NCBI RefSeq assembly: GCF_020905335.1
Contig: NZ_JAJJMN010000002.1
Span: 806,001 to 870,000, forward strand
Source: Flavobacterium lipolyticum
Lineage (GTDB): Bacteria; Bacteroidota; Bacteroidia; Flavobacteriales; Flavobacteriaceae
DNA length: 64,000 bases
Direction: 5' to 3'
Part shown: positions 1,912-55,494 of the stretch, piece after piece
How the letters are laid out: each line of letters starts with the position of its first letter
Numbering within the stretch: the stretch's first letter is position 1
Notes under the pieces: model-generated
Told to the model about the DNA's origin: nothing
Databases searched by the model: none
What the model saw: only the letters and a program-made list of their open reading frames with translations
Program-made: the position numbers and the translations under genes

Positions 1912-2967
1912 ATGAAACAAACTTTTACACTCTTCAGAATCCTCTTTTTAGTACTTTTTATTAGTGGCAACAATTACGCACAACACAAAGACGACTTTTC
2001 TTCAAAAATTGACAGTCTGATACAAACCACAAACCCAAGAAATTTTAACGGAGTGGTTGTTATTAAACAAAACGGAAAAATAAAATATGCAAAAGCACAT
2101 GGCTATTCAGATTTCAACAAGAAAACAGAACTGAAAATTTCCGATAAATTTTCAACCATGTCAATTGCCAAACAAATCACGGCTACACTTATCTTACAAG
2201 AAGTAGAAAAAGGAACAATCCATTTAGAAACCCCTATTCGTAAATATTTACCGGAATTAAAATATTCGTGGGCAGATACCATCACCGTTAATCAATTGCT
2301 CAACAATACTTCGGGATTAAGCAGTGAAGATATAGACAAACCTCTTAAATTTACTCCGGGAGTCGCTTTTAATTATTCTAATATTGGCTATTATGTAGCA
2401 GGACAAGTTTTGGAAAAACAAAGTCATAAAAGTTTTGAAGAGCTAGTAACTGCTTTGTTTAAAAAGTGCGGAATGACCAACAGTTACTACCCCAATGAGA
2501 CAAACAATACATTTTTAACAAAAGGGCACTCCATAAAAAAAGAAGGTAGTATCAGGCTGAACGAACAATTAAATTTTGATATTCATAATTATTTTGGCAG
2601 TCATTTAATTGTTTCGGTTCCTGACTTAGCAAAATGGAATGAATGTCTGCACTCCGGTCAACTATTAAAACCCGCTACTTACAAAATGATGATCGCTTAT
2701 TCAATCACCAATACCCATCCGCTTTTTGGTGATAAACCAATTGGCTATGGTTATGGATTGCGAATAAATGATAAAACCAATATTATGGAAATCGGACATA
2801 CAGGTTTTCATCCTACTGAAGGATATACAGCGGTCAATTTATACTATCCAAAAACCAAAACCAGCGTTATTGTTATGGAAAATCAAGCATTTGAAAATTT
2901 TAGTATTGCTTATTATTTTGAACAGGAAATTAGGAAAATCGTTAGAGAAAGTAATCTGTTGAATTAA
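1912..2967 (+). CDS. serine hydrolase, class C beta-lactamase/penicillin-binding fold
   Basis: A 351-residue protein with a signal peptide (cleavage near ..NNYAQ, residue 24). It carries the three landmarks of the serine beta-lactamase/DD-peptidase superfamily: SxxK at Ser84-Lys87 (SIAK), YxN at Tyr155-Asn157 (YSN), and an H-T-G box near residue 295 (IGHTG). Members act as esterases, D-aminopeptidases or peptidoglycan hydrolases; the substrate cannot be read from sequence. The export signal places it in the periplasm or outside. It is followed 22 bp later by another secreted hydrolase on the same strand, so the two are probably co-transcribed. Confidence 0.88.
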   Translation: MKQTFTLFRILFLVLFISGNNYAQHKDDFSSKIDSLIQTTNPRNFNGVVVIKQNGKIKYAKAHGYSDFNKKTELKISDKFSTMSIAKQITATLILQEVEKGTIHLETPIRKYLPELKYSWADTITVNQLLNNTSGLSSEDIDKPLKFTPGVAFNYSNIGYYVAGQVLEKQSHKSFEELVTALFKKCGMTNSYYPNETNNTFLTKGHSIKKEGSIRLNEQLNFDIHNYFGSHLIVSVPDLAKWNECLHSGQLLKPATYKMMIAYSITNTHPLFGDKPIGYGYGLRINDKTNIMEIGHTGFHPTEGYTAVNLYYPKTKTSVIVMENQAFENFSIAYYFEQEIRKIVRESNLLN

Positions 2968-2989
2968 AACTCAAATTTATAAAAGCCAT

Positions 2990-3829
2990 ATGCATAAACG
3001 AAATTCAAAACAAATTATCACCGTACTTTTTTTGACTTTAAGTCTAAACTTCGCCTTTGCGCAAAAAAAAGAGTTCCGGAAAACCACCGTTGACATTCTA
3101 ACTTTCGTAAATAACCGAAAAGTATTAAACAGTTTAAATACCGATAGCTTTCTTAAAAGAATTTTTACTAAAGACAACATACAAATTCCTTATAGATTTC
3201 TAACGCCAAAGGATAATAACAATCACCAAAAATACCCTTTAGTCATTACTTTCCACAACTCTACCCGAATTGGAAATGATAATGAAAACCAGCTTGAACC
3301 ATTTGCAAAAATTTGGCTGAGACCTGAAATTTATACTAAATATCAATGTTATGTAATCGCACCACAATTCAGCGAGCGTTCTTCAAATTATGAAAAGAAT
3401 AGTGATGGAATTCCAATTTCAAAACCTTCTGCAGCTGTTTTTGCCTTACTCGAATTAATTCAAAATATTGAAAAAGAATACCCAAACATCGATAAAAACA
3501 AGATTTACTTAATTGGATATTCTATGGGTGGATCGACTGCGCAAAATCTACTCAATATCGCTCCAAACCAATTTGCCGCTATGGTTTCCGTAGCAGCAGT
3601 TCCTGATTTTTCAAATCTTAAAAAATTAAGTAAGAAGAACATTTGGCTTATTCATGGAGAAAAAGACGATGACAATCCTTATATCGGTAGTGTGGAATTG
3701 TTTACAAAATTATCTTCAAACAAGAATTTGACTTTTACCACTTTCAATAATTTAAATCATAACAACATTGTGATTCCGTTTTTACTAACCGAAGAGATTC
3801 CAAAATGGCTGTTTGAAAAGCACAAGTAA
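2990..3829 (+). CDS. secreted alpha/beta hydrolase (PHB-depolymerase/dienelactone-hydrolase-like)
   Basis: A 279-residue protein with a signal peptide (..FAFAQ, residue ~25). It has the nucleophile elbow GYSMGG with Ser near residue 177, an acid-containing segment HGEKDDDNP and a late His region (NLNHNN), which together make a canonical Ser-Asp-His triad. The layout (ITFHNS, IAPQF, GYSMGGS) resembles the phospholipase/carboxylesterase or esterase-depolymerase group. It sits 22 bp after the serine hydrolase at 1912, which suggests a two-gene operon of exported hydrolases. The substrate is unknown. Confidence 0.82.
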   Translation: MHKRNSKQIITVLFLTLSLNFAFAQKKEFRKTTVDILTFVNNRKVLNSLNTDSFLKRIFTKDNIQIPYRFLTPKDNNNHQKYPLVITFHNSTRIGNDNENQLEPFAKIWLRPEIYTKYQCYVIAPQFSERSSNYEKNSDGIPISKPSAAVFALLELIQNIEKEYPNIDKNKIYLIGYSMGGSTAQNLLNIAPNQFAAMVSVAAVPDFSNLKKLSKKNIWLIHGEKDDDNPYIGSVELFTKLSSNKNLTFTTFNNLNHNNIVIPFLLTEEIPKWLFEKHK

Positions 3830-3900
3830 ATCGTATTTTGATGGATTTAGAACTTAATATCCTTGAATCAAATGTCTGCGCAGACTGTTGATAAAGCATT

Positions 3901-5283: not shown

Positions 5284-5988
5284 TTAGGCTAACTGCAATG
5301 CGAATTCTATCATTTCTTTAAAAGAATTTTGTCTGTCATCTGCTGATAAAGCCTCCTTTTTAAGGATATGATCCGATACCGTTAAAATAGCCAAAGCCTT
5401 TTTTCTATATTTAGCAGCTATAGAATACAAAGCAGCTGTTTCCATATCAACAGCCAAAACGCCGTAAGTTTTCCAATTTAAAAAAGGATCCCCTAAATGA
5501 CTTTCAGTATAGAAAAAATCAGATGTCAATATTGACCCCGTATGCGCTTTTATCTTATTTTGTTCTGCAATTTCATTGGCCTTTTTTAATAATTCAAAAT
5601 TCGCCGTTGGAGCAAAATCATTGCCGTTAAATTTAAATTTATTCATCCCGGAATCTGTGCACGCACTCATGGCTAAAACAATATCCATCATATTTACATC
5701 ATCCTGGATAGAACCACAAGACCCCACTCTCACCAACGTCTCTACACCATACTCTTCTATTAATTCCGTAATATAGATTGAAATGGAAGGCATCCCCATA
5801 CCTGTGCCCTGTACACTAATTCTCTTACCATTATAAAAACCGGTATATCCTAACATTCCTCTAACCTCATTATAGCATATAACGTCTGTTAAAAACGTTT
5901 CCGCAATCAGCTTTGCTCTTTTTGGATCACCAGGAAGTAAAACGAAATCTGCTATATCACCCTTTTTTGCGTTATTATGTGCACTCAT
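5284..5988 (-). CDS. deoD: purine-nucleoside phosphorylase (DeoD type)
   Basis: A 234-residue cytosolic enzyme, the usual DeoD length, that cleaves purine (deoxy)nucleosides with phosphate in nucleoside salvage. Family landmarks seen: LLPGDPKRA near residue 18 (phosphate binding), [15 protein letters not shown], the VDMETAA motif that contacts ribose, and TVSDH with the catalytic Asp late in the chain. It is monocistronic with its own terminator. The start at MSAHNN fits the family N-terminus. Confidence 0.95.
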
Positions 5989-6177
5989 ATTATTATTTTT
6001 TAGATTTATAAACTATATTTCTCTCCTCTAATTTACTTGATTTGGATACTATTTCAAGCATAATTCTATAACGGATTTTAATGACAGTCAACGTGATATG
6101 AATAAAAACTAATTTGGAGTTGTTCTTGCTTTCGCTTCATAAATCCCTGACAACACCTTAATAGAGGTCCCATAAAA

Positions 6178-6210
6178 CAAAAAACCTCCAAAATCAAAGA
6201 TTTTGAAGGT
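6178..6210 (-). terminator. terminator after tRNA-Val copy 1
   Basis: Minus-strand hairpin with stem CCTTCAAAATC / ATTTTGGAGG, then a T-run, beginning about 12 bases after the tRNA 3' end. The same element recurs after the second tRNA-Val. Confidence 0.75.
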
Positions 6211-6221
6211 GTCTTAAAAAG

Positions 6222-6299
6222 TGGTGGGCGATGAGGGGTTCGAACCCCCGACCCCCTCGGTGTAAACGAGGTGCTCTGAACCAGCTGAGCTAATCGCCC
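6222..6299 (-). tRNA. tRNA-Val (anticodon UAC), copy 1
   Basis: A 75-base cloverleaf plus encoded CCA. The acceptor stem GGGCGAT pairs with ATCGCCC, the anticodon loop TTTACAC carries UAC, and the T-arm contains GGTTCGAACC. It is identical over all 78 bases to the copy at 7965-8042. Confidence 0.97.
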
Positions 6300-6337
6300 T
6301 ATTTTATTAGGTCGCTATCCTTTCGTGATTGCGAGTG

Positions 6338-6367
6338 CAAATATACAGCTAGATTTTGTATTTGCAA
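6338..6367 (-). promoter_or_regulatory. promoter of tRNA-Val copy 1
   Basis: On the minus strand: TTG, 19 bases, then TATATTTG, a full match to the Bacteroidota TTG / TAnnTTTG consensus. The -7 element ends 38 bases before the mature tRNA 5' end. The second tRNA copy has the same spacing. Confidence 0.8.
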
Positions 6368-6434
6368 GCATTTTTCGAAAAAAAATTAACTATTTTTAAC
6401 TTAACACACCTACCCGCTTCATAGTCAATACCTT

Positions 6435-6998
6435 TTATAAACTATTTTTTATTCGTTCTGTTATTTCGTCAATTGCTCCTAGCCCATCAAAAGTCAAAAC
6501 TTTAATTTTAGACTTCATATATTCGATTGCAGGCCGGGTTAAAGTTTCAAAAACTTTAATTCTCTTCAGATGGATTTCAACATCTTTATCGTCTTTTCGA
6601 TTAGACGTTTCAGCTCTTTTTTGTGCTCTTTTTAAAAGTTCTTCTTTTGGAACTTCTATATTGATTACCTTACCTATTTCCATATTCTTGGATGCAATGA
6701 GTTCCATCAAATCATTAACCTGAGGTTCAGTCCTCGGATAACCATCCAAAATAATTCCCTTAGCCGAACTGTTTTCATCCAGAATTTTACTAAAAAGATC
6801 TTTCATAATGGAATCAGGCACTAAGTCTCCTTTTTCCTCATATTGAGACATTATTTTTCCGATCTCTGTTTTATTCTGTTTTTCCAGACGGCATCGGTCT
6901 CCGGTTGAAATATGCTTAAACTTAAGTTCTTCTTTTAGAATTTCACATTGAGTACCTTTTCCTGAATACGGAGGCCCCATTATTACTAATATTTCCAT
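6435..6998 (-). CDS. adenylate kinase-like nucleoside monophosphate kinase (probable paralogue)
   Basis: A 187-residue P-loop kinase. The P-loop is GPPYSGKGTQ at residues 8-17, the NMP-binding region has STGD followed by a shortened Arg segment, DGYPRT occupies the place of the usual DGFPRT, and the lid is short (RAETSNRKDD). Adenylate kinases interconvert ATP, AMP and ADP. The variant motifs, the isolated position and the location between duplicated tRNA genes suggest a secondary copy rather than the housekeeping adk, which flavobacteria usually carry elsewhere (inference). It could phosphorylate another nucleotide. Confidence 0.8.
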   Translation of the reverse strand: MEILVIMGPPYSGKGTQCEILKEELKFKHISTGDRCRLEKQNKTEIGKIMSQYEEKGDLVPDSIMKDLFSKILDENSSAKGIILDGYPRTEPQVNDLMELIASKNMEIGKVINIEVPKEELLKRAQKRAETSNRKDDKDVEIHLKRIKVFETLTRPAIEYMKSKIKVLTFDGLGAIDEITERIKNSL

Positions 6999-7258
6999 TT
7001 ATGTGGTGTTTTTATTCTTCTTTATTATCTTCAAAAATTTGAATGAGTTATTTTGTTTTTATTTGCATGACATTACAAATTTACAGGAAATGCAAATTAA
7101 TTACTTTAAAGACCTTCTCGATAAAGAACCAAACTAAGTCTATATTCACTTTATAGCAAAATAATACCTACTATTTTGTTTAAACAATATAACTAATTTC
7201 AGCTTTAAAAACACTATTTTAATTAATTTAGTCGTAAACTTAAAATAACTATCTGTAA

Positions 7259-37433: not shown

Positions 37434-37461
37434 AAAAACTGGCTTTAAGCCAGTTTTTTTT
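37434..37461. terminator. bidirectional terminator between HhH-like gene and menC
   Basis: Hairpin from AAAACTGGC and GCCAGTTTT with a T-run on the plus strand and A-run on the other side; it overlaps the menC stop codon region. Confidence 0.75.
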
Positions 37462-43038: not shown

Positions 43039-43966
43039 TTCTGTTTGTTTTGTTTTTAATAATTGATAGTGTAAAAATAAAGCATTTTTATATTTTTACC
43101 TACCGCTATTTGTTTTTAGTCGTAACTAAAATCTGTTGTAATGTTAACAATTGGTATAATCTTACAAATAATAATAATTTTAACAGTAGTTTCAAAAAAT
43201 AATATTTAATTTTACAACCTAGAAATCAATGAGATACATTTTATTTCATTGACTAGAAGATTGATTTTCTTTCACTGATTTATTAACCTAAAAAATGATT
43301 TTTTTGAGAAAATTTAAAAATTTTGTCGCTCATTATTTTACGGTTTTTATTCATATGCCGTTGATCAATGAGCAAATGATTTATTCATTTGTTGAAACTT
43401 CAAAAAGGAGATAGTAACACCTAAGGTTAAAAGCTGGAATTGTTTAAGAATTAGTATCAGATTGATTACGAAAAGAGGAAAAATACTAACTAAAACTTTC
43501 TACAAGTTATTTTATCAAACTAAATGGGTCGAGCCGTGAAATTGAGTTTTTGCTTTTAATATGAATTTATAAATTGTTTAAAGACATACTTATTTCAGAA
43601 AATAGTTTCTAAAATTTTTAAAGCTGCTATTTTTTGAATAGATTCGAGTTTATTTTATTTCTGTTTTTTTTTAATTACAATTTTTTTTAAAACTAGAATA
43701 AAAAGGAAAAGGCTACTTGTAATGAGTAGCCTTTTCTGTTATGAAACTACCAAACTAGAGTAGAATCATCGCTCAAATCAAAAGTTGAGAATCTTAGATA
43801 ATAATTAAAAAACTTAACTCTACTTAAAAGTCCTTCCTTATTTTTTTGACTTTACTCATTTTTTTTAGATACAATCTGCAATAATAGAACTCTATCTAAA
43901 AATACGGGAATTGCCAAATATTGTATAAGAAAAAACAAATAAAATATCTCTCCATTGAAAACCTTA
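43039..43966. other. 928 bp AT-rich intergenic region
   Basis: Upstream of menB and downstream of the protease array. Apart from a strong hairpin at 43707-43735, I see no coding sequence of convincing length, tRNA, repeat or promoter consensus. It may hold the menB promoter at its left end. Confidence 0.5.
43707..43735 (-). terminator. hairpin terminator downstream of the protease array
   Basis: AAAAGGCTACT pairs with AGTAGCCTTTT across 7 bases; T-rich on both sides. It is 230 bp beyond the last protease stop, and there is no gene on the plus strand to its left, so the minus strand is the likelier user. Confidence 0.5.
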
Positions 43967-45772
43967 CTATTCTTTAATAAATGGCTTGCTGCTATTTTTT
44001 ATTCTAATGATGTATAATCCATTTGGGAGAGTGCTAACATCAATTTGTCCGGTTTGGGTTCTGCCAGTCAGTATTTGCTGGCCTGTTAAATTATAAATTG
44101 CATATTCTTCATTTTCCATATTCGAAATAGTTAAAATATCCTTTACAGGATTAGGATATAGAATGATATCTTGGGATTTTTCTACCTCTTTTTCCAAAGT
44201 ATCTCTCTTGCTTCTGCCTGTTTTACCGGGTCTTAAATCTTTCACTGTAATGTTAAGATCTGTATTAATACCAGCATCCGTTGATCTTTGAGTAGTATAC
44301 AAATTAGGAAAAACTTTTCGAATTCTATTTCTCATTGCTATAACCTGGCCCGGAGTAAACATAAAACGGCAATTACTATAATCCATAATATTCTCTATCA
44401 ACCTTCTCTGTCCTCCACATTGAAGAGGGGCAATACAATCTTTATAGGACCATAAGTATGTTGCTTCTGAGGCAGGAGTATCACTAATTTTATCATTTGG
44501 CCCTGTACAACCACCCGCAAAAGTGTGATCTAGTCCAAAATAATGCCCCAATTCGTGGGCAAGTGTTACTATTATTAATGGATTACTATCGTATTTGCTA
44601 TAAGCAATAACTGTAAGAGCTGCTACTAATTCATTGTTACTATTATCAATCCAGATACCACTAGTTCCAAAGAGAAAAACATTTGCCTGATTTCTTAATT
44701 TAGGCACATATTTAATAAATATTTCATTTTTGTTAATACTCTTTATATCAATTCCATCTGCATTTTTATTTGCCATTGCAGCTCCTGAAGCTATCTTGTC
44801 TCGGTCATAAATCTCTTTTGATCCTTTACGGACAGTAATATCAATATCTTTGAACACAATTCTGGCATTAGCCATTTTGGCACCCGCCGCCACTGCTGCA
44901 GGTGGTAAAGTCTTACCCGTTTTATCGGTATAGGCTTTATTAGCCCAATTAAATTGCTGTCTTACCAAATCTTCGTAATAAGAAGCTGTATTGTTATCTT
45001 CCGGGGCTTCCAGAATTTCTGCATTTACTTTTTTGATGATAAAATAAGGATACTCTTTTTCTATTATTCTCTTCAAGTTGTCATTCCTTTCCACCGCGGG
45101 AACCCGTACGTCTATCAAAGTAGCATCTTTCACCGTAATTTTTACCACTACAGGCTGGTTTTCTAACTGTATCAGTTTATCCTCATCTATTTCCAAAGAA
45201 CAGGAAGAACTTACAAGGCTGAAAGCCCTAAGCCAGTTCCAGGCCCAGCCTCCACAATTCACCGTAACTGTATTCGATGATTTAGCACCCAGTGTTTTTA
45301 TATCATCAGAAGAAATCTTACCAATCTGCTGGCCATAATCAAAGTATTCGTAATTCATTTCTTTTGTTGTTTTAGAAAACACATTTGGGGAACTTTGAGT
45401 GATTTCCACATTATAGATCGGTCTGGTTACAAATGTCTTCTCATCGTTTGTCAATAGCTGCAACCCTCCTGCTCTCTTACTGTCGTAAGCATGCACCTCG
45501 ATTTTGATATAACCTCCGGGTTTATCTATGGTTCCCTTAATACCGCTTAGGTAGTTGTTGCGACGGTTGTAAAGTCCTTTATAATATACGGTCAGTAAAT
45601 CAGACTCAATGCTATTGTCTGTTTTCGGATTTGCAGACCAAAATTCCTTCTCTCCAACTACCTTTATATTATTATCCGGATAGCTGACAACACCACTGCC
45701 TTCTGATTTTTGGGCATACATAAAACCCGAAAAACAAAATATAAAACTCAAAATAATATATTCTTTTTTCAT
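43967..45772 (-). CDS. secreted M43-type metzincin protease with T9SS sorting domain, array member 1
   Basis: A 601-residue protein. A signal peptide ends near GFMYAQ (residue 21), then a unique N-terminal region (~22-315), a metzincin zinc site HELGHYFGLDH near residue 405, a disulfide-rich GGC..ISDTP loop, the Met-turn NIMDY near 460, and a T9SS type A domain from YPNPVKDILTIS to the end. The pattern with DTP and FTPGQ fits peptidase family M43 (pappalysin/cytophagalysin). It keeps the Gly of HExxHxxGxxH. A dibasic RSKRD linker precedes the sorting domain and could be cleaved during export. Confidence 0.9.
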   Translation of the reverse strand: MKKEYIILSFIFCFSGFMYAQKSEGSGVVSYPDNNIKVVGEKEFWSANPKTDNSIESDLLTVYYKGLYNRRNNYLSGIKGTIDKPGGYIKIEVHAYDSKRAGGLQLLTNDEKTFVTRPIYNVEITQSSPNVFSKTTKEMNYEYFDYGQQIGKISSDDIKTLGAKSSNTVTVNCGGWAWNWLRAFSLVSSSCSLEIDEDKLIQLENQPVVVKITVKDATLIDVRVPAVERNDNLKRIIEKEYPYFIIKKVNAEILEAPEDNNTASYYEDLVRQQFNWANKAYTDKTGKTLPPAAVAAGAKMANARIVFKDIDITVRKGSKEIYDRDKIASGAAMANKNADGIDIKSINKNEIFIKYVPKLRNQANVFLFGTSGIWIDNSNNELVAALTVIAYSKYDSNPLIIVTLAHELGHYFGLDHTFAGGCTGPNDKISDTPASEATYLWSYKDCIAPLQCGGQRRLIENIMDYSNCRFMFTPGQVIAMRNRIRKVFPNLYTTQRSTDAGINTDLNITVKDLRPGKTGRSKRDTLEKEVEKSQDIILYPNPVKDILTISNMENEEYAIYNLTGQQILTGRTQTGQIDVSTLPNGLYIIRIKNSSKPFIKE

Positions 45773-45944
45773 AATGTCTCTTGTTAAATTTTAAAATCCA
45801 ACAGAATTGAATGAAATTTTCACCAGTAAAGGGAAATGAATCGAGAGTTTAAGTACGATTATACTTATTGCGTACAAAAAACACTTCGAATACTAAATTA
45901 TTAAGACAGGTCGTTAAAAAAACGATAACAATCTCTTCATCAAA

Positions 45945-47759
45945 CTATTCTTTAATAAATTGCTTGCTGCTATTTTTTATTTTAATGATGTATAATCCTT
46001 TTGGGAGAGTGCTAACATTAATTTGCCCGGTTTGGGTTCTGCCAGTCAGTATTTGCTGGCCTGTTAAATTATAAATTGCATATTCTTCGCTGCCTATATT
46101 AGAAATATTTAAAATATCCTTTACAGGATTAGGATATAAAAAGATGTCTCGTGATTTTCCTACTTCTTTTTCCGAAGCATCTCTCTTGCTTCTGCCTGTT
46201 TTACCCGATCTTAAATCTTTCACCGTAATATTAAGATCTGTATTGATAGCAGCATCCGTTGATCTTTGAGTAGTATATAAATTGGGGAAATCATTTCTAA
46301 TTGAATTTCTCATTACTTTAACCTGACCCGGGGTGAACATAAACGAGCAATAACTGTAATCCATGACATTTTCTATTAACCTTCTTTGCCCATCACATTG
46401 AACAGGAGCAATACAATCTTTATAATCGGGCACATCACCCTTTATGATTTCAGCTCGAGGTGTATCACTAATTTTATCATTTGGACCGGTACATCCACCC
46501 TCAAAAGGATGAAGCAACTTAAAATAATGCCCAAGCTCGTGTGCAAGTGTACTTGTTTTCAGCAATAATTCCTTATTATTCGCATCGAAGTTATAACACA
46601 AAACTGTAAAAACAAGAAAAAATTTTCCATTTTTCATATCATGAAGATCGAAGGTATATCCTGTAGATTGGCTTGTTGTGCTAATTAATTTATGTACATA
46701 TTTAATAAAAATTTCATCCATATTAACATTCCTTATATCAATTCCACCAACATTCTTCTTTTGTACGTCAGCTATTGAAATATTACTTAAGTCATAGTTC
46801 TTTTTTAATCCCTTTCGGATAGTAATATCGATATCTTTGAACACGATTCTGGGATTAGCCATTTTGGCACCCGCCGCCACTGCTGCAGGTGGTAGAGTCT
46901 TACCCGTTTTATCGGTATAGGCTTTATTGGCCCAATTAAATTGCTGTCTTACCATGTCTTCGTAATAAGAGACCGTGTTATTATCTTCCGGGGCTTCCAG
47001 AACCTCTACATTTACTTTTTTGATGATAAAATAAGGATACTCTTTTTCTATTATTCTCTTCAAATTGTCATTCCTTTCCACCGCGGGAACCCGTACGTCC
47101 ATCAAAGTAGCATCTTTCATCGCAATTTTTACCACTACAGGCTGGTTTTCTAACTGTATCAGTTTATCCTCATCTATTTCCAAAGAACAGGAAGAACTTA
47201 CAAGGCTGAAAGCCCTAAGCCAGTTCCAGGCCCAGCCTCCACAATTCACTGTAACTGTATTCGATGCTTTAGCACCCAGTGTTTTTATATCATCAGAAGA
47301 AATCTTACCAATCTGCTGGCCATAATCAAAGTATTGGTAATTCATCTCTTTTGTTGTTTTAGAAAACACATTTGGGGAACTTTGAGTGATTTCTACATTA
47401 TAGATCGGTCTGGTTACAAATGTCTTATCATCGTTTGTCAATAGCTGCAACCCTCCTGCTCTCTTGCTGTCGTAAGCATGCACCTCGATTTTGATATAAC
47501 CTCCGGGTTTATCTATGGTTCCCTTAATACCGCTTAGGTAGTTGTTGTGACGGTTGTAAAGTCCTTTGTAATATACGGTCAGTAAATCAGACTCACTGCT
47601 ATTGTCTGTTTTCGGATTTGCAGACCAAAATTCCTTCTCTCCAACTACCTTTATATTATTATCCGGATAGCTGACAACACCACTGCCTTCTGATTTTTGG
47701 GCATACATAAACCCCGAAAAACAAAATATAAAACTCAAAATAGTATATTCTTTTTTCAT
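45945..47759 (-). CDS. secreted M43-type protease with T9SS sorting domain, array member 2
   Basis: 604 residues, the same architecture as member 1 and almost identical to it through residue ~315 and over the last ~130. The middle (~318-450) is different: the zinc site is HELGHYFKLLH, with Lys in place of the conserved Gly, followed by PFEGGC. The Met-turn is NVMDY. Zinc ligands and catalytic Glu are intact. It is 172 bp upstream of member 1 with a conserved spacer. Confidence 0.88.
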   Translation of the reverse strand: MKKEYTILSFIFCFSGFMYAQKSEGSGVVSYPDNNIKVVGEKEFWSANPKTDNSSESDLLTVYYKGLYNRHNNYLSGIKGTIDKPGGYIKIEVHAYDSKRAGGLQLLTNDDKTFVTRPIYNVEITQSSPNVFSKTTKEMNYQYFDYGQQIGKISSDDIKTLGAKASNTVTVNCGGWAWNWLRAFSLVSSSCSLEIDEDKLIQLENQPVVVKIAMKDATLMDVRVPAVERNDNLKRIIEKEYPYFIIKKVNVEVLEAPEDNNTVSYYEDMVRQQFNWANKAYTDKTGKTLPPAAVAAGAKMANPRIVFKDIDITIRKGLKKNYDLSNISIADVQKKNVGGIDIRNVNMDEIFIKYVHKLISTTSQSTGYTFDLHDMKNGKFFLVFTVLCYNFDANNKELLLKTSTLAHELGHYFKLLHPFEGGCTGPNDKISDTPRAEIIKGDVPDYKDCIAPVQCDGQRRLIENVMDYSYCSFMFTPGQVKVMRNSIRNDFPNLYTTQRSTDAAINTDLNITVKDLRSGKTGRSKRDASEKEVGKSRDIFLYPNPVKDILNISNIGSEEYAIYNLTGQQILTGRTQTGQINVSTLPKGLYIIKIKNSSKQFIKE

Positions 47760-47945
47760 AATGTCTCTTGTTAAATGTCTCTTGTTAGATTTTAAAATCC
47801 GGCAAAATTGAACGAAATTTTCACCAGTAAGGGGAAATGAATCGAGAGTTTAAGTACGATTATACTTATTGCGTACAAAAAACACTTCGAATACTAAATT
47901 ATTAAGACAGATCGTTAAAAAAACGATAACAATCTCTCCATCAAA

Positions 47946-49739
47946 CTATTCTTTAATAAATTGCTTGCTGCTATTTTTTATTTTAATGATGTATAATCCT
48001 TTTGGGAGAGTGCTAACATTAATTTCTCCGGTTTGAGTTCCCCCAGCCAGGATTTGCTGCCCTGTTAAGTTATAAATTACATATTCTTCGCTGCTTATAT
48101 TCGAAATAGTTAAAATATCCTTTACAGGATTAGGATATAGAATGATATCTTGGGATTTTTCAGCTTCTTTTTCCGAAGCATCTCTCTTGCTTCTGCCTGT
48201 TTTACCCGATCTTAAATCTTTCACCGTAATATTAAGATCTATATTAATACCAGCATCCGTTGATTTCACAATGGTATATAAGTCTGGGTATTCATTTCTA
48301 ATTGTATTTCTCATTACCTTGACCTGACCTGGTGTAAACATAAACCGACATTGACTATAATCCATTATATTTTCTATTAACCTCCTGTGTCCTCCACATT
48401 GAAGAGGGGCGATACAATCTTTATAAACCGGTGTAGTTGCAACTTCTTCCGCAGGAGGAGTATCACTAATATGGTCATTAGTTTTACTAACACAACCTCC
48501 CAAAAAAGTATGCTCTAGCATAAAATAATGCCCCAACTCATGCGAAACTATATTTGTACTCTCAAAAGCCGGAGGATTATTAGGTAAGGTATATCTTAAA
48601 ACGAGAAAAGCCAAGTCTATATTATTTTTCTCATCAAAACCTTGAAAAGTATGTCCTCCCAAAGCTGTTCCTAAGTCAAATAATTCAGGAACATATTTGA
48701 TGAATATTTCACGTTTAGTAGGCTCTTTTAAATTAATATCACGATCTCTTTCATTTTCTATATTCTGATTAAAATATCTTTTCTTTGATCCTTTACGGAT
48801 AGTAATATCGATATCTTTGAACACGATTCTGGCATTAGCCATTTTGGCACCCGCAGCCACTGCTGCAGGTGGTAGAGTCTTACCCGTTTTATCGGTATAG
48901 GCTTTATTGGCCCAATTAAATTGCCGTCTTACCATGTCTTCGTAATAAGAGGCCGTATTATTGTCTTGTGGATCTTCCAGAACCTCTACATTTACTTTTT
49001 TAATTATATAGTATGAATACTCTTTTTCTATAATCCCCTTCAGATTTTCATTGTCTGCCACCGCGGGAACCCGTACGTCCATCAAAGTAGCATCTTTCAT
49101 CGCAATTTTTACCACTACAGGCTGGTTTTCTAACTGTATCAATTTATCCTCATCTATTTCCAAAGAACAGGAAGAACTTACAAGGCTGAAAGCCCTGAGC
49201 CAGTTCCAGGCCCAGCCTCCACAATTCACTGTAACTGTATTCGATGCTTTAGCACCCAGTGTTTTTATATCATCAGAAGAAATCTTACCAATCTGCTGGC
49301 CATAATCAAAGTATTGGTAATTCATCTCTTTTGTTGTTTTAGAAAACACATTTGGGGAACTTTGAGTGATTTCTACATTATAGATCGGTCTGGTTACAAA
49401 TGTCTTATCATCGTTTGTCAATAGCTGCAACCCTCCTGCTCTCTTGCTGTCGTAAGCATGCACCTCGATTTTGATGTAACCTCCGGGTTTATCTATGGTT
49501 CCCTTAATACCGCTTAGGTAGTTGTTGCGACGGTTGTAAAGTCCTTTGTAATATACGGTCAATAAATCGGACTCACTGTTATTGTCTGTTTTGGGATTTG
49601 CAGACCAAAATACCTTCTCTCCAACTACCTTTATATTATTATCCGGATAGCTGACAACACCACTGCCTTCTGATTTTTGGGCATACATAAAACCCGAAAA
49701 ACAAAATATAAAACTCAAAATACTATATTCTTTTTTCAT
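47946..49739 (-). CDS. secreted M43-type protease with T9SS sorting domain, array member 3
   Basis: 597 residues, the same architecture. The zinc site is HELGHYFMLEH (Met replaces the conserved Gly), the next loop is FLGGCVSKTNDH, and the Met-turn is NIMDY. The conserved N-terminal region is slightly changed near residues 240-260 (VADNENLKGIIEKEYSYY). The sorting domain has AGGTQTGEIN where the others have TGRTQTG. It is 186 bp upstream of member 2. Confidence 0.88.
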   Translation of the reverse strand: MKKEYSILSFIFCFSGFMYAQKSEGSGVVSYPDNNIKVVGEKVFWSANPKTDNNSESDLLTVYYKGLYNRRNNYLSGIKGTIDKPGGYIKIEVHAYDSKRAGGLQLLTNDDKTFVTRPIYNVEITQSSPNVFSKTTKEMNYQYFDYGQQIGKISSDDIKTLGAKASNTVTVNCGGWAWNWLRAFSLVSSSCSLEIDEDKLIQLENQPVVVKIAMKDATLMDVRVPAVADNENLKGIIEKEYSYYIIKKVNVEVLEDPQDNNTASYYEDMVRRQFNWANKAYTDKTGKTLPPAAVAAGAKMANARIVFKDIDITIRKGSKKRYFNQNIENERDRDINLKEPTKREIFIKYVPELFDLGTALGGHTFQGFDEKNNIDLAFLVLRYTLPNNPPAFESTNIVSHELGHYFMLEHTFLGGCVSKTNDHISDTPPAEEVATTPVYKDCIAPLQCGGHRRLIENIMDYSQCRFMFTPGQVKVMRNTIRNEYPDLYTIVKSTDAGINIDLNITVKDLRSGKTGRSKRDASEKEAEKSQDIILYPNPVKDILTISNISSEEYVIYNLTGQQILAGGTQTGEINVSTLPKGLYIIKIKNSSKQFIKE

Positions 49740-49913
49740 AACTGTCTCTTGTTAGATTTTAAAATCCGTAAGAATTGAACGAAATTTTCACCAGTAAAGG
49801 GAAATGAATCGAGAGTTTAAGTATGATCATACCTATTGCATACAAAAAAATGCTTCGAATACTCAATTATTAAGACAGGTCGTTAAAAAAACGATAACAA
49901 CCTCTCCATCAAA

Positions 49914-51698
49914 CTATTCTTTAATAAATTGCTTGCTGCTATTTTTTATTCTAATGATGTATAATCCATTTGGGAGAGTGCTAATATTAATTTGTCCGGT
50001 TTGGGTTCTGCCAGTCAGTATTTGCTGCCCTGTTAAGTTATAAATTGCATATTCTTCATTTTCCATATTCGAAATAGTTAAAATATCCTTTACCGGATTA
50101 GGGTATAAAACAATGTCTCGCGATTTTTCTGCTTCTTTTTCCAACGTATCTCTCTTGTTTCTGCCTGTTTTACCCGATCTTAAATCTTTCACTGTAATGT
50201 TAAGATCTGTATTGATAGCAACGTCTGTTGATTTCTCAATGGTATATAAATCAGGGTAATCATTTCTAATTGTAGCTCTCATTACTCTAACTTGACCTGG
50301 AGTGAACATAAACTGGCAATCGGTATAATCCATCATATTCTCTACTAACCTCCTATGTCCACCACATTGAACAGGGGCAACAATGCAACTTACACCTATA
50401 TAGTTCATATCTTCTGTAGGAGGCGTATCGCTAATTTTATCATTTAAACCATCACAACCTCCTTCAAAAGTATGTTTCAGTCCAAAATAATGTCCCAGCT
50501 CGTGAGCTGCTACTCCTTTTTTAAAAATTATATCATTACTACCGTAGTAGTAATCCAAAACAATAAAAGCTACTTTTAGTTCGTTCTTTTTAGTACGTCC
50601 CCTAATTGTAACTCCTGCTTCAGAACCTGTGCCACTATTTATTCCATGAACATATTTAATGAATACTTCATTTTTATTTGTGTTATTGCCATCAATCTCA
50701 CCGTCTTTTCCTTTTATTAACTCATTTATGTCATAAATTTGCTTTAATCCTTTTCTGATGGTAATATTTATATCTTTGAATACAATTCTAGTATTAGCCA
50801 TTTTGGCACCTGCCGCCACTGCTGCAGTTGGTAAAGTTTTGCCGGTTTTGTCTGTGTATACCTTATTGACCCAATTAAATTGCTGTCTTACCAAATTTTC
50901 ATAATAAGAAGCTGTATTATTATCTTGCGGGGCTTCCAGAACCTCTACATTTACTTTTTTGATGATAAAATAAGGATACTCTTTTTCTATTATTCTCTTC
51001 AAATTGTCATTCCTTTCCACCGCGGGGACCCGTACGTCCATCAAAGTAGCATCTTTCATCGCAATTTTTACCACTACAGGCTGGTTTTCTAACTGTATCA
51101 GTTTATCCTCATCTATTTCCAAAGAACAGGAAGAACTTACAAGGCTAAAAGCCCTAAGCCAGTTCCAGGCCCAGCCTCCACAATTCACTGTAACTGTATT
51201 CGATGATTTAGCACCCAGTGTTTTTATATCATCAGAAGAAATCTTACCAATCTGCTGGCCATAATCAAAGTATTGGTAATTCATCTCTTTCGTTGTTTTA
51301 GAAAACACATTTGGGGAACTTTGAGTGATTTCCACATTATAGATCGGTCTGGTTACAAATGTCTTCTCATCGTTTGTCAATAGCTGCAACCCTCCTGCTC
51401 TCTTACTGTCGTAAGCATGCACCTCGATTTTGATGTGACCTCCGGGTTTATCTATGGTTCCCTTAATACCGCTTAGGTAGTTGTTGCGACGGTTGTAAAG
51501 TCCTTTGTAATATACGGTCAGTAAATCAGACTCAATGCTATTGTCTGTTTTGGGATTTGCAGACCAAAATACCTTCTCTCCAACTACCTTTATATTATTA
51601 TCCGGATAGCTGACAACACCACTGCCTTCTGATTTTTGGGCATACATAAACCCCGAAAAACAAAATATAAAACTCAAAATAGTATATTCTTTTTTCAT
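49914..51698 (-). CDS. secreted M43-type protease with T9SS sorting domain, array member 4
   Basis: 594 residues, the shortest. The zinc site HELGHYFGLKH keeps the Gly, with GGCDGLNDK next, and the Met-turn NMMDY. The segment between zinc site and Met-turn differs by a shifted Cys (VSCIVAPVQC). It is 174 bp upstream of member 3. Confidence 0.88.
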   Translation of the reverse strand: MKKEYTILSFIFCFSGFMYAQKSEGSGVVSYPDNNIKVVGEKVFWSANPKTDNSIESDLLTVYYKGLYNRRNNYLSGIKGTIDKPGGHIKIEVHAYDSKRAGGLQLLTNDEKTFVTRPIYNVEITQSSPNVFSKTTKEMNYQYFDYGQQIGKISSDDIKTLGAKSSNTVTVNCGGWAWNWLRAFSLVSSSCSLEIDEDKLIQLENQPVVVKIAMKDATLMDVRVPAVERNDNLKRIIEKEYPYFIIKKVNVEVLEAPQDNNTASYYENLVRQQFNWVNKVYTDKTGKTLPTAAVAAGAKMANTRIVFKDINITIRKGLKQIYDINELIKGKDGEIDGNNTNKNEVFIKYVHGINSGTGSEAGVTIRGRTKKNELKVAFIVLDYYYGSNDIIFKKGVAAHELGHYFGLKHTFEGGCDGLNDKISDTPPTEDMNYIGVSCIVAPVQCGGHRRLVENMMDYTDCQFMFTPGQVRVMRATIRNDYPDLYTIEKSTDVAINTDLNITVKDLRSGKTGRNKRDTLEKEAEKSRDIVLYPNPVKDILTISNMENEEYAIYNLTGQQILTGRTQTGQINISTLPNGLYIIRIKNSSKQFIKE

Positions 51699-51885
51699 AA
51701 TGTCTCTTGTTAAATGTCTCTTGTTAGATTTTAAAATCCGGCAAAATTGAACGAAATTTTCACCAGTAAGGGGAAATGAATCGAGAGTTTAAGTACGATC
51801 ATACTTAATTGCATACAAAAAATACTTCGAATACTAAATTATTAAGACAGGTCGTTAAAAAAACGATAACAATCTCTCCATCAAA

Positions 51886-53709
51886 CTATTCTTTAATAAA
51901 TTGCTTGCTGCTATTTTTTATTCTAATGATGTATAATCCTTTTGGGAGAGTGCTAACATCAATTTGTCCGGTTTGGGTTCTGCCAGTCAGTATTTGCTGG
52001 CCTGTTAAATTATAAATTGCATATTCTTCATTTTCCATATTCGAAATAGTTAAAATATCCTTTACAGGATTAGGATATAGAATGATATCTTGGGATTTTT
52101 CTACCTCTTTTTCCAAAGTATCTCTCTTGCTTCTGCCTGTTTTACCGGGTCTTAAATCTTCCACTGTAATGTTAAGATCTGTATTGATAGCAGCGTCTGT
52201 TGATTTCTGAGTGGTATATAAATTTGAAAAATCCTTTTTGATCGCATTTCTCATTACTTTGACCTGACCTGGGGTGAACATAAACGTGCAGTTGCTATAA
52301 TCCATAATATTCTCTATCAACCTTCTGTGCCCACCACATTGAACAGGAGCAATACAATTTTCATAAAATCTCGTTTTTGGTTCTTCGGCAGGTGGAGTAT
52401 CACTAATTTTATCATTTTTACCGGTACAACCACCTTCAAAAGTATGTATAAGGCTAAAATAATGTCCCAACTCGTGTGCAGCTGTTGTCTTTTTTATCGA
52501 TAGTTCATTAACATCATCTTTATAGTCATAAGCCAAAACAATAAAAGCTAGTAATAGTTTTTCATTGCCATCACGCCCGACAACAGTTACTCCTGAAAAA
52601 ACCGACTTTTCTGAGATTAATTCAGGTACATATTTGATGACTATTTTTTCTTTACTATCATTACTTACAAGATCTCTTATATTAATTCCATCAGCGTTTA
52701 ATTTTTGTATTTCAGGTATTGAATTTATCTTATCTTGATTATAGATCTTCTTTGATCCTTTCCGGATAGTTATATCAATATCTCTGAATACGATTCTGGC
52801 ATTAGCCATTTTCGCACCTGTCGCCACTGCTGCAGGCGGTAAAGTCTTACCTGTTTTATCGTTATAGGCTTTATTAGCCCAATTAACCTGTAGTCTAACC
52901 AAATCTTCATAATATTGGGCCGTATTATTATCTGCCGGGGCTTCCAGAATTTCTACATTTACTTTTTTGATGATAAAATAAGGATACTCTTTTTCTATTA
53001 TTCTCTTCAAGTTGTCATTCCTTTCCACCGCGGGAACCCGTACGTCTATCAAAGTAGCATCTTTCACCGTAATTTTTACCACTACAGGCTGGTTTTCTAA
53101 CTGTATCAGTTTATCCTCATCTATTTCCAAAGAACAGGAAGAACTTACAAGGCTGAAAGCCCTAAGCCAGTTCCAGGCCCAGCCTCCACAATTCACTGTA
53201 ACTGTATTCGATGCTTTAGCACCCAGTGTTTTTATATCATCAGAAGAAATCTTACCAATCTGCTGGCCATAATCAAAGTATTGGTAATTCATCTCTTTTG
53301 TTGTTTTAGAAAACACATTTGGCGAACTTTGAGTGATTTCCACATTATAAATCGGTCTGGTTACAAATGTCTTCTCATCGTTTGTCAATAGCTGCAACCC
53401 TCCTGCTCTCTTACTGTCGTAAGCATGCACCTCGATTTTGATGTAACCACCAGGTTTATCTATGGTTCCCTTAATACCGCTTAGGTAGTTGTTGCGACGG
53501 TTGTAAAGTCCTTTGTAATATGTGGTCAGTAAATCAGACTCACTGCTATTGTCTGTTTTGGGATTAGCAGACCAAAATACCTTCTCTCCAACTACCTTTA
53601 TATTATTATCCGGATAGCTGACAACACCACTGCCTTCTGATTTTTGGGCATACATAAAACCCGAAAAACAAAATACAAAACCTAAAATAATTTTTCTTTT
53701 CTCTCTCAT
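51886..53709 (-). CDS. secreted M43-type protease with T9SS sorting domain, array member 5
   Basis: 607 residues. The zinc site is HELGHYFSLIH (Ser replaces the conserved Gly) and the Met-turn NIMDY. Its first codons differ (MREKRKIILGFVFCF) although the rest of the signal peptide is identical, and it has the longest variable segment. It is the first protease of the array and lies 86 bp after the S74-like gene. The others may read from its promoter or their own; the spacers show no clear TAnnTTTG. Confidence 0.88.
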   Translation of the reverse strand: MREKRKIILGFVFCFSGFMYAQKSEGSGVVSYPDNNIKVVGEKVFWSANPKTDNSSESDLLTTYYKGLYNRRNNYLSGIKGTIDKPGGYIKIEVHAYDSKRAGGLQLLTNDEKTFVTRPIYNVEITQSSPNVFSKTTKEMNYQYFDYGQQIGKISSDDIKTLGAKASNTVTVNCGGWAWNWLRAFSLVSSSCSLEIDEDKLIQLENQPVVVKITVKDATLIDVRVPAVERNDNLKRIIEKEYPYFIIKKVNVEILEAPADNNTAQYYEDLVRLQVNWANKAYNDKTGKTLPPAAVATGAKMANARIVFRDIDITIRKGSKKIYNQDKINSIPEIQKLNADGINIRDLVSNDSKEKIVIKYVPELISEKSVFSGVTVVGRDGNEKLLLAFIVLAYDYKDDVNELSIKKTTAAHELGHYFSLIHTFEGGCTGKNDKISDTPPAEEPKTRFYENCIAPVQCGGHRRLIENIMDYSNCTFMFTPGQVKVMRNAIKKDFSNLYTTQKSTDAAINTDLNITVEDLRPGKTGRSKRDTLEKEVEKSQDIILYPNPVKDILTISNMENEEYAIYNLTGQQILTGRTQTGQIDVSTLPKGLYIIRIKNSSKQFIKE

Positions 53710-53795: not shown

Positions 53796-54821
53796 TTATT
53801 TACGATAATTACTTTCTTTTTCAAGTGCTTCTATCTTTTTATTCAATATTTCAATTTTCTCATTTTGATTCCTGATGTTTTTATTTTGGTCAATGATATG
53901 AAGAAGCAACTCTTCAACATTTTGTAAAAGGCCTTCATTAAAAGTATGTATTTTATATCCTTTTTCATTTACCTCTTTCTCAGAGACTATACCAGGAAGA
54001 TGTTTGTTTTCTTTAACATAATTTTCCAAAGCCATTAAATCCATTTTCTTATAATCACTCTCAAAAACAACATCCTTCCAATGTGGTTTAGGAATAATAT
54101 TTAAATCTGATGTCAAAATTTGTTTTTCAACAATAAGGGAGCAGTCCGCTTTAAGATCGTCAGTTAATCCGGGATTAGCTTCTATATTTTTAGAGCTGCC
54201 AATGTAGGTCATTCCACCCACTGTTAAGGCTGCGCCGTTTACCGGATTACCTGCGTTTATTGCAAGCTGTGCCAGATCATTTGCTCCTCCATAATCCATA
54301 ATGACATACTTCCCATTGATCGTAATAGCATCATTATCGTCCCCTAGCTGTATTTTATTACCTAAGTTGGAGGAAATATTCAAGCCATTTTCGTCCCCAT
54401 AACTAATAAGTTGTGTTTTGTAATCATCCACCAGCACCTTAAAATTGTCATGTTGACCATTTGGGTTAGTACTGGCAACCGTTAAGTTTCCCTGAGAGTA
54501 AATATCTCCTTTTACCCATAAATCGGCCTTGTTATAAGCGCTCCAGGTTAATGACATCCCCATATACTCGGTAGATTGATCATTATCATGCCACCATCTA
54601 AAACCTTCTACTCCTTTTAGACCACTACTAGGTCCATTGTTGTCTTTATCTACCAGTAAATCAAATATCGATGCAGCATAATAATACGGATATGTATCAC
54701 TAGAATAAGGTAATGGAATAAAAGTTTGAGCAAAACCGGAACCTGTAAAAAATAAAAAGGTAAATAAATTAAAAAAGTAATCTTTCCTTTTTAATTGATT
54801 TTGAAATTTAGTTGTTTTCAT
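53796..54821 (-). CDS. secreted protein with S74-like/coiled-coil C-terminal domain
   Basis: A 341-residue protein with a signal-like start (hydrophobic to ..TGSGFAQ, residue ~32). The middle is beta-rich and glycine-rich (ADLWVKGDIYSQGNLTVAS and later GGMTYIGSS). The C-terminal ~100 residues (WKDVVFESDYKKMDLMAL.. then a coiled coil of IDQNKNIRNQNEKI) match the domain often annotated tail-fibre or S74-like in Bacteroidota. No T9SS domain is present. Its position just upstream of the protease array suggests a functional link, unproven. It is not evidence of a prophage. Confidence 0.75.
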   Translation of the reverse strand: MKTTKFQNQLKRKDYFFNLFTFLFFTGSGFAQTFIPLPYSSDTYPYYYAASIFDLLVDKDNNGPSSGLKGVEGFRWWHDNDQSTEYMGMSLTWSAYNKADLWVKGDIYSQGNLTVASTNPNGQHDNFKVLVDDYKTQLISYGDENGLNISSNLGNKIQLGDDNDAITINGKYVIMDYGGANDLAQLAINAGNPVNGAALTVGGMTYIGSSKNIEANPGLTDDLKADCSLIVEKQILTSDLNIIPKPHWKDVVFESDYKKMDLMALENYVKENKHLPGIVSEKEVNEKGYKIHTFNEGLLQNVEELLLHIIDQNKNIRNQNEKIEILNKKIEALEKESNYRK

Positions 54822-54978
54822 AATATTTATTTTTTTGTTATTAGCAATGGTTAAAAACTACAGTAAAATATGTCGCTTTCTACGGTATGAAGAAAAATCA
54901 GCTTTAAGATGTTTTTTATTATTTCGACAGTACTTTAGTGAGGAACAGAGTCCAACTAGTATTGTTTAGGAATACTAT

Positions 54979-55065: not shown

Positions 55066-55454
55066 TCACTACATATATAAGGTTACCATTAATTATGTTA
55101 TATATTAACAAGCAAAACGCATTACATCTAAACCGACTGTTGAATTTTAATCGATTAAATTATGTAAGTAAATTTATGTTAAATAAACAAAACACCATTG
55201 CAAAATAAATAAGTGCAAGGATTGATGTAATAAATGGCTGTATATAAACAACAACTTTAACTTTAGTCTTTTTCTTGTAAAAAACCAAAAACTATATTCG
55301 AATTCGATTTTATTTGAAACTTAAATAATTCATTTTTTAATCGTCCTTCGACATTCTTCTATTGAATCTTTGCATAAATTGTCTCTTATGATGAAAACTA
55401 TTTTTTCTTCATACTCTACTCTGTCTGCTTTTTCCAGAAAGTAAAACTTAAAAA

Positions 55455-55494
55455 AAAATCCAAATTTCAATACTAGTATTGAAATTTGGATTTT
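55455..55494. terminator. perfect 40 bp palindrome, terminator of the CvfB-like gene
   Basis: Twenty-base arms (AAAATCCAAATTTCAATACT and its complement) with no loop. It lies 22 bp after the stop at 55517; the AAAA/TTTT ends let it work on both strands. Confidence 0.85.

Follow-up and report, generated by a model that had tools for sequence, protein, structure and literature searches.

The window analysed here, a stretch of 64,000 nucleotides from Flavobacterium lipolyticum (contig NZ_JAJJMN010000002.1, positions 806,001 to 870,000), carries five adjacent genes for predicted secreted metalloproteases of the pappalysin type (family M43). We consider it probable that this array represents an arsenal of proteases with differing cleavage specificities, in which the enzymes are under diversifying selection and the ends of the genes are kept uniform by gene conversion. 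A first-pass annotation of the DNA had reported five adjacent genes of 594-607 codons and, indeed, five complete tandem open reading frames (ORFs) are present on the minus strand between positions 43967 and 53709. In coordinate order these are G1 (43967-45772, 601 amino acids, the last gene of the array), G2 (45945-47759, 604 amino acids), G3 (47946-49739, 597 amino acids), G4 (49914-51698, 594 amino acids) and G5 (51886-53709, 607 amino acids, the first gene of the array). Each protease is built from a signal-peptide-like start (recognised by eye), an N-terminal region of about 215 residues, an M43 catalytic domain and a type A sorting domain of the type IX secretion system (T9SS). The Pfam scan was made on G1 and G5, and the domains in G2 to G4 were assigned by alignment of their ORFs. 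PF05572 (Peptidase_M43) scored 69.9 and 73 bits in G1 and G5, respectively, against a cut-off of 23 (E-values of 2.9e-19 and 3.4e-20). PF18962 (Por_Secre_tail) was above its curated cut-off in both copies scanned (E-value of 1.2e-13 in G1), and TIGR04183 reached 45.2 bits against a cut-off of 23 in the one copy scanned. On the basis of this C-terminal sorting domain, and with signal peptides recognised by eye, all five proteins are predicted to be T9SS cargo.

Divergence is distributed very unevenly along the genes. The mean pairwise amino acid identity among G1 to G5 is 0.956 in alignment columns 1-240, 0.873 in columns 241-317, 0.448 in columns 318-460, 0.754 in columns 461-514 and 0.875 from column 515 to the end. 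The first-pass annotation had described constant ends around a variable stretch at residues of about 318-450. This agrees with the amino acid identities, but the block of divergent DNA is wider, reaching from about residue 233 to about residue 505, and corresponds to the whole catalytic domain. The synonymous divergence (pS) within the array is 0.07 before column 233, 0.47 in columns 233-514 (G5 residues 233-505) and 0.17 thereafter, and the inner block of high pS coincides with the catalytic domain. In G5 the domain as modelled (residues 240-515) lies at positions 52165-52992 of the minus strand, which is approximately the block delimited by the change-points in synonymous divergence. The T9SS sorting regions are similar, as had been described, but they are not near-identical throughout (pS of 0.00-0.24 between pairs from column 521 to the end).

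Homogenisation of the ends of these genes by recombination is strongly supported. The limits of the divergent block differ between the ten pairs of genes, with left limits at columns 233-316 and right limits at columns 491-569 (G5 residues 482-560), as would fit gene conversion. G1 and G5 have 90 consecutive variable sites in common in their C-terminal part, a run that was reached in none of 2000 permutations, despite the location of these genes at opposite ends of the array; their cores differ, with a pS of 0.46 and a nonsynonymous divergence (pN) of 0.31. For each of the 10 pairs within the array, at most 7 of the 2000 permutations gave a run as long as the longest common one, and for the 11 pairs that involve a sixth copy from the same genome or the copy from Flavobacterium poyangense this number was never below 43. 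As the permutation takes no account of conservation that varies along the gene, more weight should be given to the tract ends, which are specific to each pair, and to the tree tests. The latter, like the codon models described below, were restricted to columns without gaps, which number 257 of 280 in the core. The maximum-likelihood tree of the core was rejected by both the N-terminal and the C-terminal region (p-values of 0.006 each in the approximately unbiased (AU) test), and both C-terminal trees were rejected by the core (AU p-values of 0.02 and 0.01). Gene conversion of the ends, as proposed in the first-pass annotation, is thus upheld by a synonymous divergence that is strongly non-uniform and has pair-specific block ends; uniform divergence along the genes would have argued against it. 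In addition, the spacers upstream of G1 to G4 are nearly identical, and the 5' flank and first residues of G5 are unlike those of the other genes.

Positive selection in the catalytic domain, concentrated near the active-site cleft, is supported by codon models. These models were run in our own implementation on the 257 gap-free core codons of seven sequences, namely G1 to G5, the sixth copy and the F. poyangense copy. The comparison of M8 with M8a, i.e. of a nonsynonymous-to-synonymous rate ratio (omega) above 1 with neutrality, gave twice the log-likelihood difference (2ΔlnL) as 45.9, or 43.7 in a second run with fewer classes, and an omega of 3.4-3.5 at 16% of the sites. When columns within five positions of a gap were dropped, 182 codons were left and 2ΔlnL was 18.6 (p-value of 8e-6). 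The maximum 2ΔlnL in simulations under the null model was 4.2 (n = 20 finished of 24 queued). Under M8, 24 core sites had naive empirical Bayes posteriors of at least 0.95, and 17 of these lie in residues 366-408, a segment that contributes 39 of the 257 codons. The active diversification suggested by the first-pass annotation is therefore supported against a simulated null, and its link to cleavage specificity is suggested by the positions of the selected sites.

The catalytic machinery itself is constant. His412, Glu413, His416, His422, Met469 and Tyr471, which comprise the zinc ligands, the catalytic Glu, the Met-turn Met and the Tyr, are unchanged in all seven family members. The zinc site had been placed inside the variable core and its surroundings do vary, but the catalytic residues (HExxH, third His, Met and Tyr) are invariant. 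In G5 the zinc motif HELGHYFSLIH (residues 412-422) is encoded at positions 52444-52476 and the Met-turn MDYSNCT (residues 469-475) at positions 52285-52305, both on the minus strand and both assigned from the family alignment. Three positions within these motifs do change. In the order G1 to G5, sixth copy and F. poyangense, position 419, which is usually Gly, reads G, K, M, G, S, S and R, so that Gly is present in two of the seven sequences. According to a report on mirolysin (PMC6949598), this enzyme has Asp at the position of the metzincin Gly, and a change there is therefore compatible with membership of M43. The same report attributes the specificity of mirolysin to Asp289. Position 473, which lies near this S1' Asp, reads N, Y, Q, D, N, N and N, with Asp in one of the seven, although the equivalence is uncertain as mirolysin has two more residues in this segment; residue 473 is not one of the 24 selected sites. 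Position 475 reads R, S, R, Q, T, R and Q.

The position of the selected sites with respect to the cleft was estimated from promirolysin. Its interface segments were transferred by sequence alignment and the cleft rim by strand order, and it should be noted that this mapping was made after the sites had been seen. The model of the catalytic domain is of medium quality, with a mean predicted local distance difference test score (pLDDT) of 55 and a predicted template modelling score (pTM) of 0.61; its top four Foldseek matches are all ulilysin (best E-value of 1.7e-7), and the best sequence match of the domain is mirolysin. In this model the last two strands before the active-site helix are formed by residues 373-379 and 385-393. 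The β7 strand of mirolysin, which forms the upper cleft rim and binds substrate according to PMC6949598, corresponds to the first of these two. This predicted rim strand of G5 (model residues 134-140 of 276; window positions 52573-52593, minus strand) lies inside a hypervariable stretch at residues 366-379. Of the 24 selected sites, 13 fall inside the mapped cleft-interface segments, compared with 67 of the 257 codons (Fisher p-value of 0.002) or with 46 of the 158 variable codons (p-value of 0.005). These positions suggest that selection alters cleavage specificity, and the variation between the proteases would probably result in different substrate or inhibitor specificities. The N-terminal region does not vary along with the cleft, and we therefore doubt that it docks into the cleft as a classical pro-segment. 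It had no match among solved structures or plasmids, and a full-length structure prediction from six sequences (mean pLDDT of 31.5) was not used.

The mechanism that we propose starts from the single gene between a fibre-like gene and menB in F. poyangense, the place of which is taken by five genes in F. lipolyticum. The N-terminal region, the spacers and the C-terminal sorting region are homogenised by recombination, either gene conversion or unequal crossing-over, whereas the catalytic domains are about equally divergent within the array and between the species. The catalytic residues stay fixed while a minority of sites in the catalytic domain, enriched in the mapped cleft segments and the adjacent loop, show an excess of amino acid change. 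This excess would alter substrate choice or inhibitor sensitivity, and the targets of the enzymes may be extracellular proteins of an antagonist, host or prey that itself changes. The fibre-like protein encoded next to the array, the head of which is replaced between strains at the locus of the sixth copy, may belong to the same system. In most enzymes, the surroundings of the active site are the part under the strongest constraint. In this array, residues near the cleft appear to change fastest while the parts needed for secretion stay uniform, which would make the array a natural experiment in the evolution of protease specificity and a source of five ready-made variants of one protease scaffold. 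If the array is indeed an arsenal of this kind, the cleavage profiles of its members would point to the antagonist or prey.

The fibre-like gene of the window (341 amino acids, positions 53796-54821, minus strand) lies directly upstream of the array and has a signal-like start as judged by eye; the label is our own and the protein gave no family match. Related fibre-like genes also precede the sixth copy, which is located in the same genome at C1:2835369-2837144, and the F. poyangense copy. At the locus of the sixth copy, the fibre-like gene differs between the genome of the window and G374, another genome of this species, and both sides of the locus match between the two genomes at 98-99%. 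Its head (columns 1-150) shows a pS of 0.43-0.60 and a pN of 0.20-0.54 between them, the remainder a pS of 0.00-0.11, and about 440 bp upstream of the gene are also unmatched; the sequence on either side of this replaced segment matches at 96-98%. The two versions of this head-replaced gene are at positions 5985-7250 of stretch L045 and 2554-3831 of stretch L042. The head of the window's fibre-like gene (columns 1-150) in turn has a pS of 0.05-0.18 to a fibre-like gene at a third locus, and the other halves of these two genes differ. The sequences concerned, which are nearly identical in the first halves of the genes, are at positions 54355-54843 of the window and 5498-6688 of stretch L056, and the third-locus gene is located upstream of genes for a GDPD-domain protein and a T9SS-tagged protein. 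The head common to two loci, together with the head swap between strains, indicates that parts of fibre-like genes are exchanged from locus to locus, and that large segments of these genes differ from strain to strain.

The distribution of the protease family is narrow. In F. poyangense, the closest named relative found, the gene order around the locus is conserved with one protease copy between the fibre-like gene and menB, although this single copy may be a collapsed array if the assembly is based on short reads. In a collection of genome contigs of at least 3,000 bases, 4 of 144 candidate stretches were confirmed, with a full-length match in F. poyangense only. Outside the own genome there were no matches in 198 of 198 genus genomes at an E-value of 1e-60, in 295 of 295 relatives at 1e-25, or in 396 of 396 family genomes at 1e-6 with an N-terminal profile. 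A set of 398 genus genomes gave matches only in the own genome and in G374 (at 1e-30, and also at 1e-6 with the N-terminal profile). These genome sets overlap, and each samples a larger group. Full-length alignment revealed no relative in viral contigs. The genome of G374 is fragmented: its contigs end at about window positions 55323 and 43177 with the array unassembled in between, and its sixth-copy gene breaks off after residue 121 and continues only from about residue 539 (549 in G5 numbering), with the core unassembled.

The cores are old or foreign. Pairs of cores from the array have a pS of 0.46-0.64, and the pS of the five cores to that of F. poyangense is 0.57-0.65, about equal for all five, so that cores are not conserved one-to-one in the only other species found, in line with the first-pass annotation. 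The whole-gene pS of eight neighbouring genes between the two species, the fibre-like gene included, is 0.62-0.83. Judged by these values, either the cores were imported or they are little younger than the split between the two species. A block in the N-terminal region has a between-species pS of 0.22 for the five genes (columns 103-213) and of 0.21 for the sixth copy (columns 81-215). This block (G5 columns 81-215, window positions 53065-53469) shows well under half of the divergence of the neighbouring genes, and the lowest 135-codon window of seven flanking genes has a pS of 0.56. Such a low N-terminal pS could result either from exchange between species or from synonymous constraint.

Several observations weigh against an arsenal shaped by diversifying selection. 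The N-terminal trees were not rejected by the core (AU p-values of 0.43-0.45), the core tree itself is almost star-like, and in the Shimodaira-Hasegawa test the N-terminal region did not reject the core tree (p-value of 0.078). When the core tree was constrained to have the sixth copy and F. poyangense as sisters, neither end rejected it (AU p-values of 0.073 and 0.055). The mean omega is 0.32 in the N-terminal region, 0.27 in the core and 0.195 in the C-terminal region; the bulk of the core is thus constrained and the signal is located in a minority of sites. The posteriors are naive and are based on seven sequences with long branches and possible recombination inside the core, and such tests can be inflated. 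Eleven of the 24 selected sites lie outside the mapped segments, several of them in the loop that leads from the last strand to the active-site helix, and the rim mapping depends on strand order in a medium-quality model. Moreover, the family was found in two species only.

Some of these points would be expected if G1 to G5 were old paralogues with cores that merely drifted, conversion having halted where the domains had diverged and the loops being relaxed. Conversion tracts do stop where identity drops, the most variable 30-codon window has a pN/pS of about 1.0, which is not clearly above 1, and the N-terminal trees mentioned above are consistent with drift. However, the 2ΔlnL of 43.7 far exceeds all simulated null values and is still 18.6 once gap-adjacent columns are left out, and the conserved catalytic residues do not give the impression of decayed enzymes. 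We therefore regard drift without selection for diversity as unlikely. Escape from inhibitors appears slightly less improbable, though still doubtful. Here, protein inhibitors from a host, prey or competitor would bind the cleft rim, and the proteases would evade them with substrates much unchanged. The selected sites are enriched on segments that touch the promirolysin pro-segment, where cleft-binding inhibitors would also sit, whereas the variation of position 473 near the S1' end fits a change in specificity, with the proviso on its equivalence to Asp289 given above. These alternatives are not mutually exclusive, as both inhibitor escape and the exchange of cassettes discussed below could hold beside conversion of the ends.

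Active exchange of cassettes concerns the source of the diversity and is compatible with the arsenal that we favour. The constant ends would act as homology handles for the import of fibre heads and of entire catalytic domains, with other strains or species as the source. This idea draws on the similarity of the core pS within the array to the distance from F. poyangense, on the N-terminal block with a between-species pS of 0.21-0.22 against a minimum of 0.56 for windows of the flanking genes, and on the fibre head that was swapped, together with its upstream region, between two strains with matching sides. On the other hand, none of the genomes searched yielded a donor core (two of the searches used the N-terminal profile), core exchange between strains was not seen, the array of the second strain being unassembled, and the low N-terminal pS could represent synonymous constraint instead. 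We consider such exchange a genuine possibility, but would not count on it. A more elaborate version, in which constant protease ends and a constant fibre part serve as handles of a two-part locus for specificity diversification, with domains and heads exchanged between loci, strains and species and each strain pairing its own protease set with its own fibre head, is offered as a tentative suggestion only. It is highly improbable that the variation is programmed, be it by a diversity-generating retroelement or by a site-specific recombinase. Adjoining constant and variable segments are reminiscent of such systems, but the differences include indels and are spread over the whole domain. Moreover, nine neighbouring ORFs between positions 37460 and 60076 gave no match to a reverse transcriptase or recombinase, a scan that did not extend to shorter ORFs, to the rest of the window (including 32 ORFs of at least 150 amino acids in the first 37.4 kb) or to the rest of the genome.

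The proteases were compared with known systems. Membership of the pappalysins, which include mirolysin, ulilysin and cytophagalysin (PMC6949598, PMC11674741), is indicated by the M43 profile, by the Met-turn followed by Tyr in all seven sequences and by the metzincin fold of the medium-confidence model. The family departs from these enzymes in that the conserved S1' Asp seems to be absent in six of the seven (in a part where the alignment is uncertain), the metzincin Gly position is variable, and there is an additional N-terminal region of about 215 residues without a relative in solved structures. The KLIKK proteases of Tannerella forsythia (PMC4404884) are likewise secreted proteases encoded in clusters, which have almost the same C-terminal sorting domain but different catalytic domains, and one of them, mirolysin, is a pappalysin like G1 to G5. 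KLIKK proteases span several catalytic families, each with its own N-terminal profragment, and end in KLIKK. In contrast, the five proteins described here align as a single M43 family, are most constant in their N-terminal region and all end in FIKE. The spl operon of Staphylococcus aureus (PMC12783888) resembles the array in that as many as six secreted proteases that are homologous to each other are encoded together, and their substrate specificities are reported to be complementary or allele-dependent; the Spl enzymes are serine proteases rather than metalloproteases, and the abstracts do not describe homogenised ends or a linked fibre gene.

The first-pass annotation knew of no named system of this form. 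We likewise found no described array of this kind among the titles and abstract beginnings of the matches listed (subscription papers being mostly outside the coverage), nor in passages of PMC5808330, but partial precedents exist in the spl operon and the KLIKK proteases. Tandem secreted proteases and common sorting ends are thus already known. A role as a defence system was set aside; the proteins scanned gave one PADLOC match with an E-value of 0.039. Among the proteins scanned against PHROGs, the only matches were to families of unknown function with E-values of 0.0019 or weaker.

The array is set among genes of the menaquinone pathway and other chromosomal genes in a genome of 5.77 Mb. One flank contains genes for a menD-like thiamine pyrophosphate (TPP) enzyme, an M28 peptidase and a CvfB-like protein, and the other flank contains menB-, menA- and menC-like genes; the names menA, menB and menD are inferred from the Pfam families matched. 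A terminator-like hairpin is located downstream of G1 (positions 43706-43736, minus strand), which is weak evidence as the consensus scan found 6 hairpins in the region against 6.4 expected. The same weak scan listed no minus-strand hairpins between the genes of the array.

Elsewhere in the genome, a 98-codon ORF near C1:3686469 (positions 2967-3263 of stretch L046) has the beginning and the extreme end of the protease family but lacks the core, and is likely to be a deletion remnant. The two ORFs preceding it (positions 74-934 and 1336-2355 of L046) look alike by eye, and the one that was scanned had no significant family match. Lastly, a perfect palindrome of 40 bases with zero spacer is located at window positions 55455-55494, between the fibre-like and CvfB-like genes, and a stretch of 45 bases on contig C14 of G374 is 84% like the corresponding part of the window.

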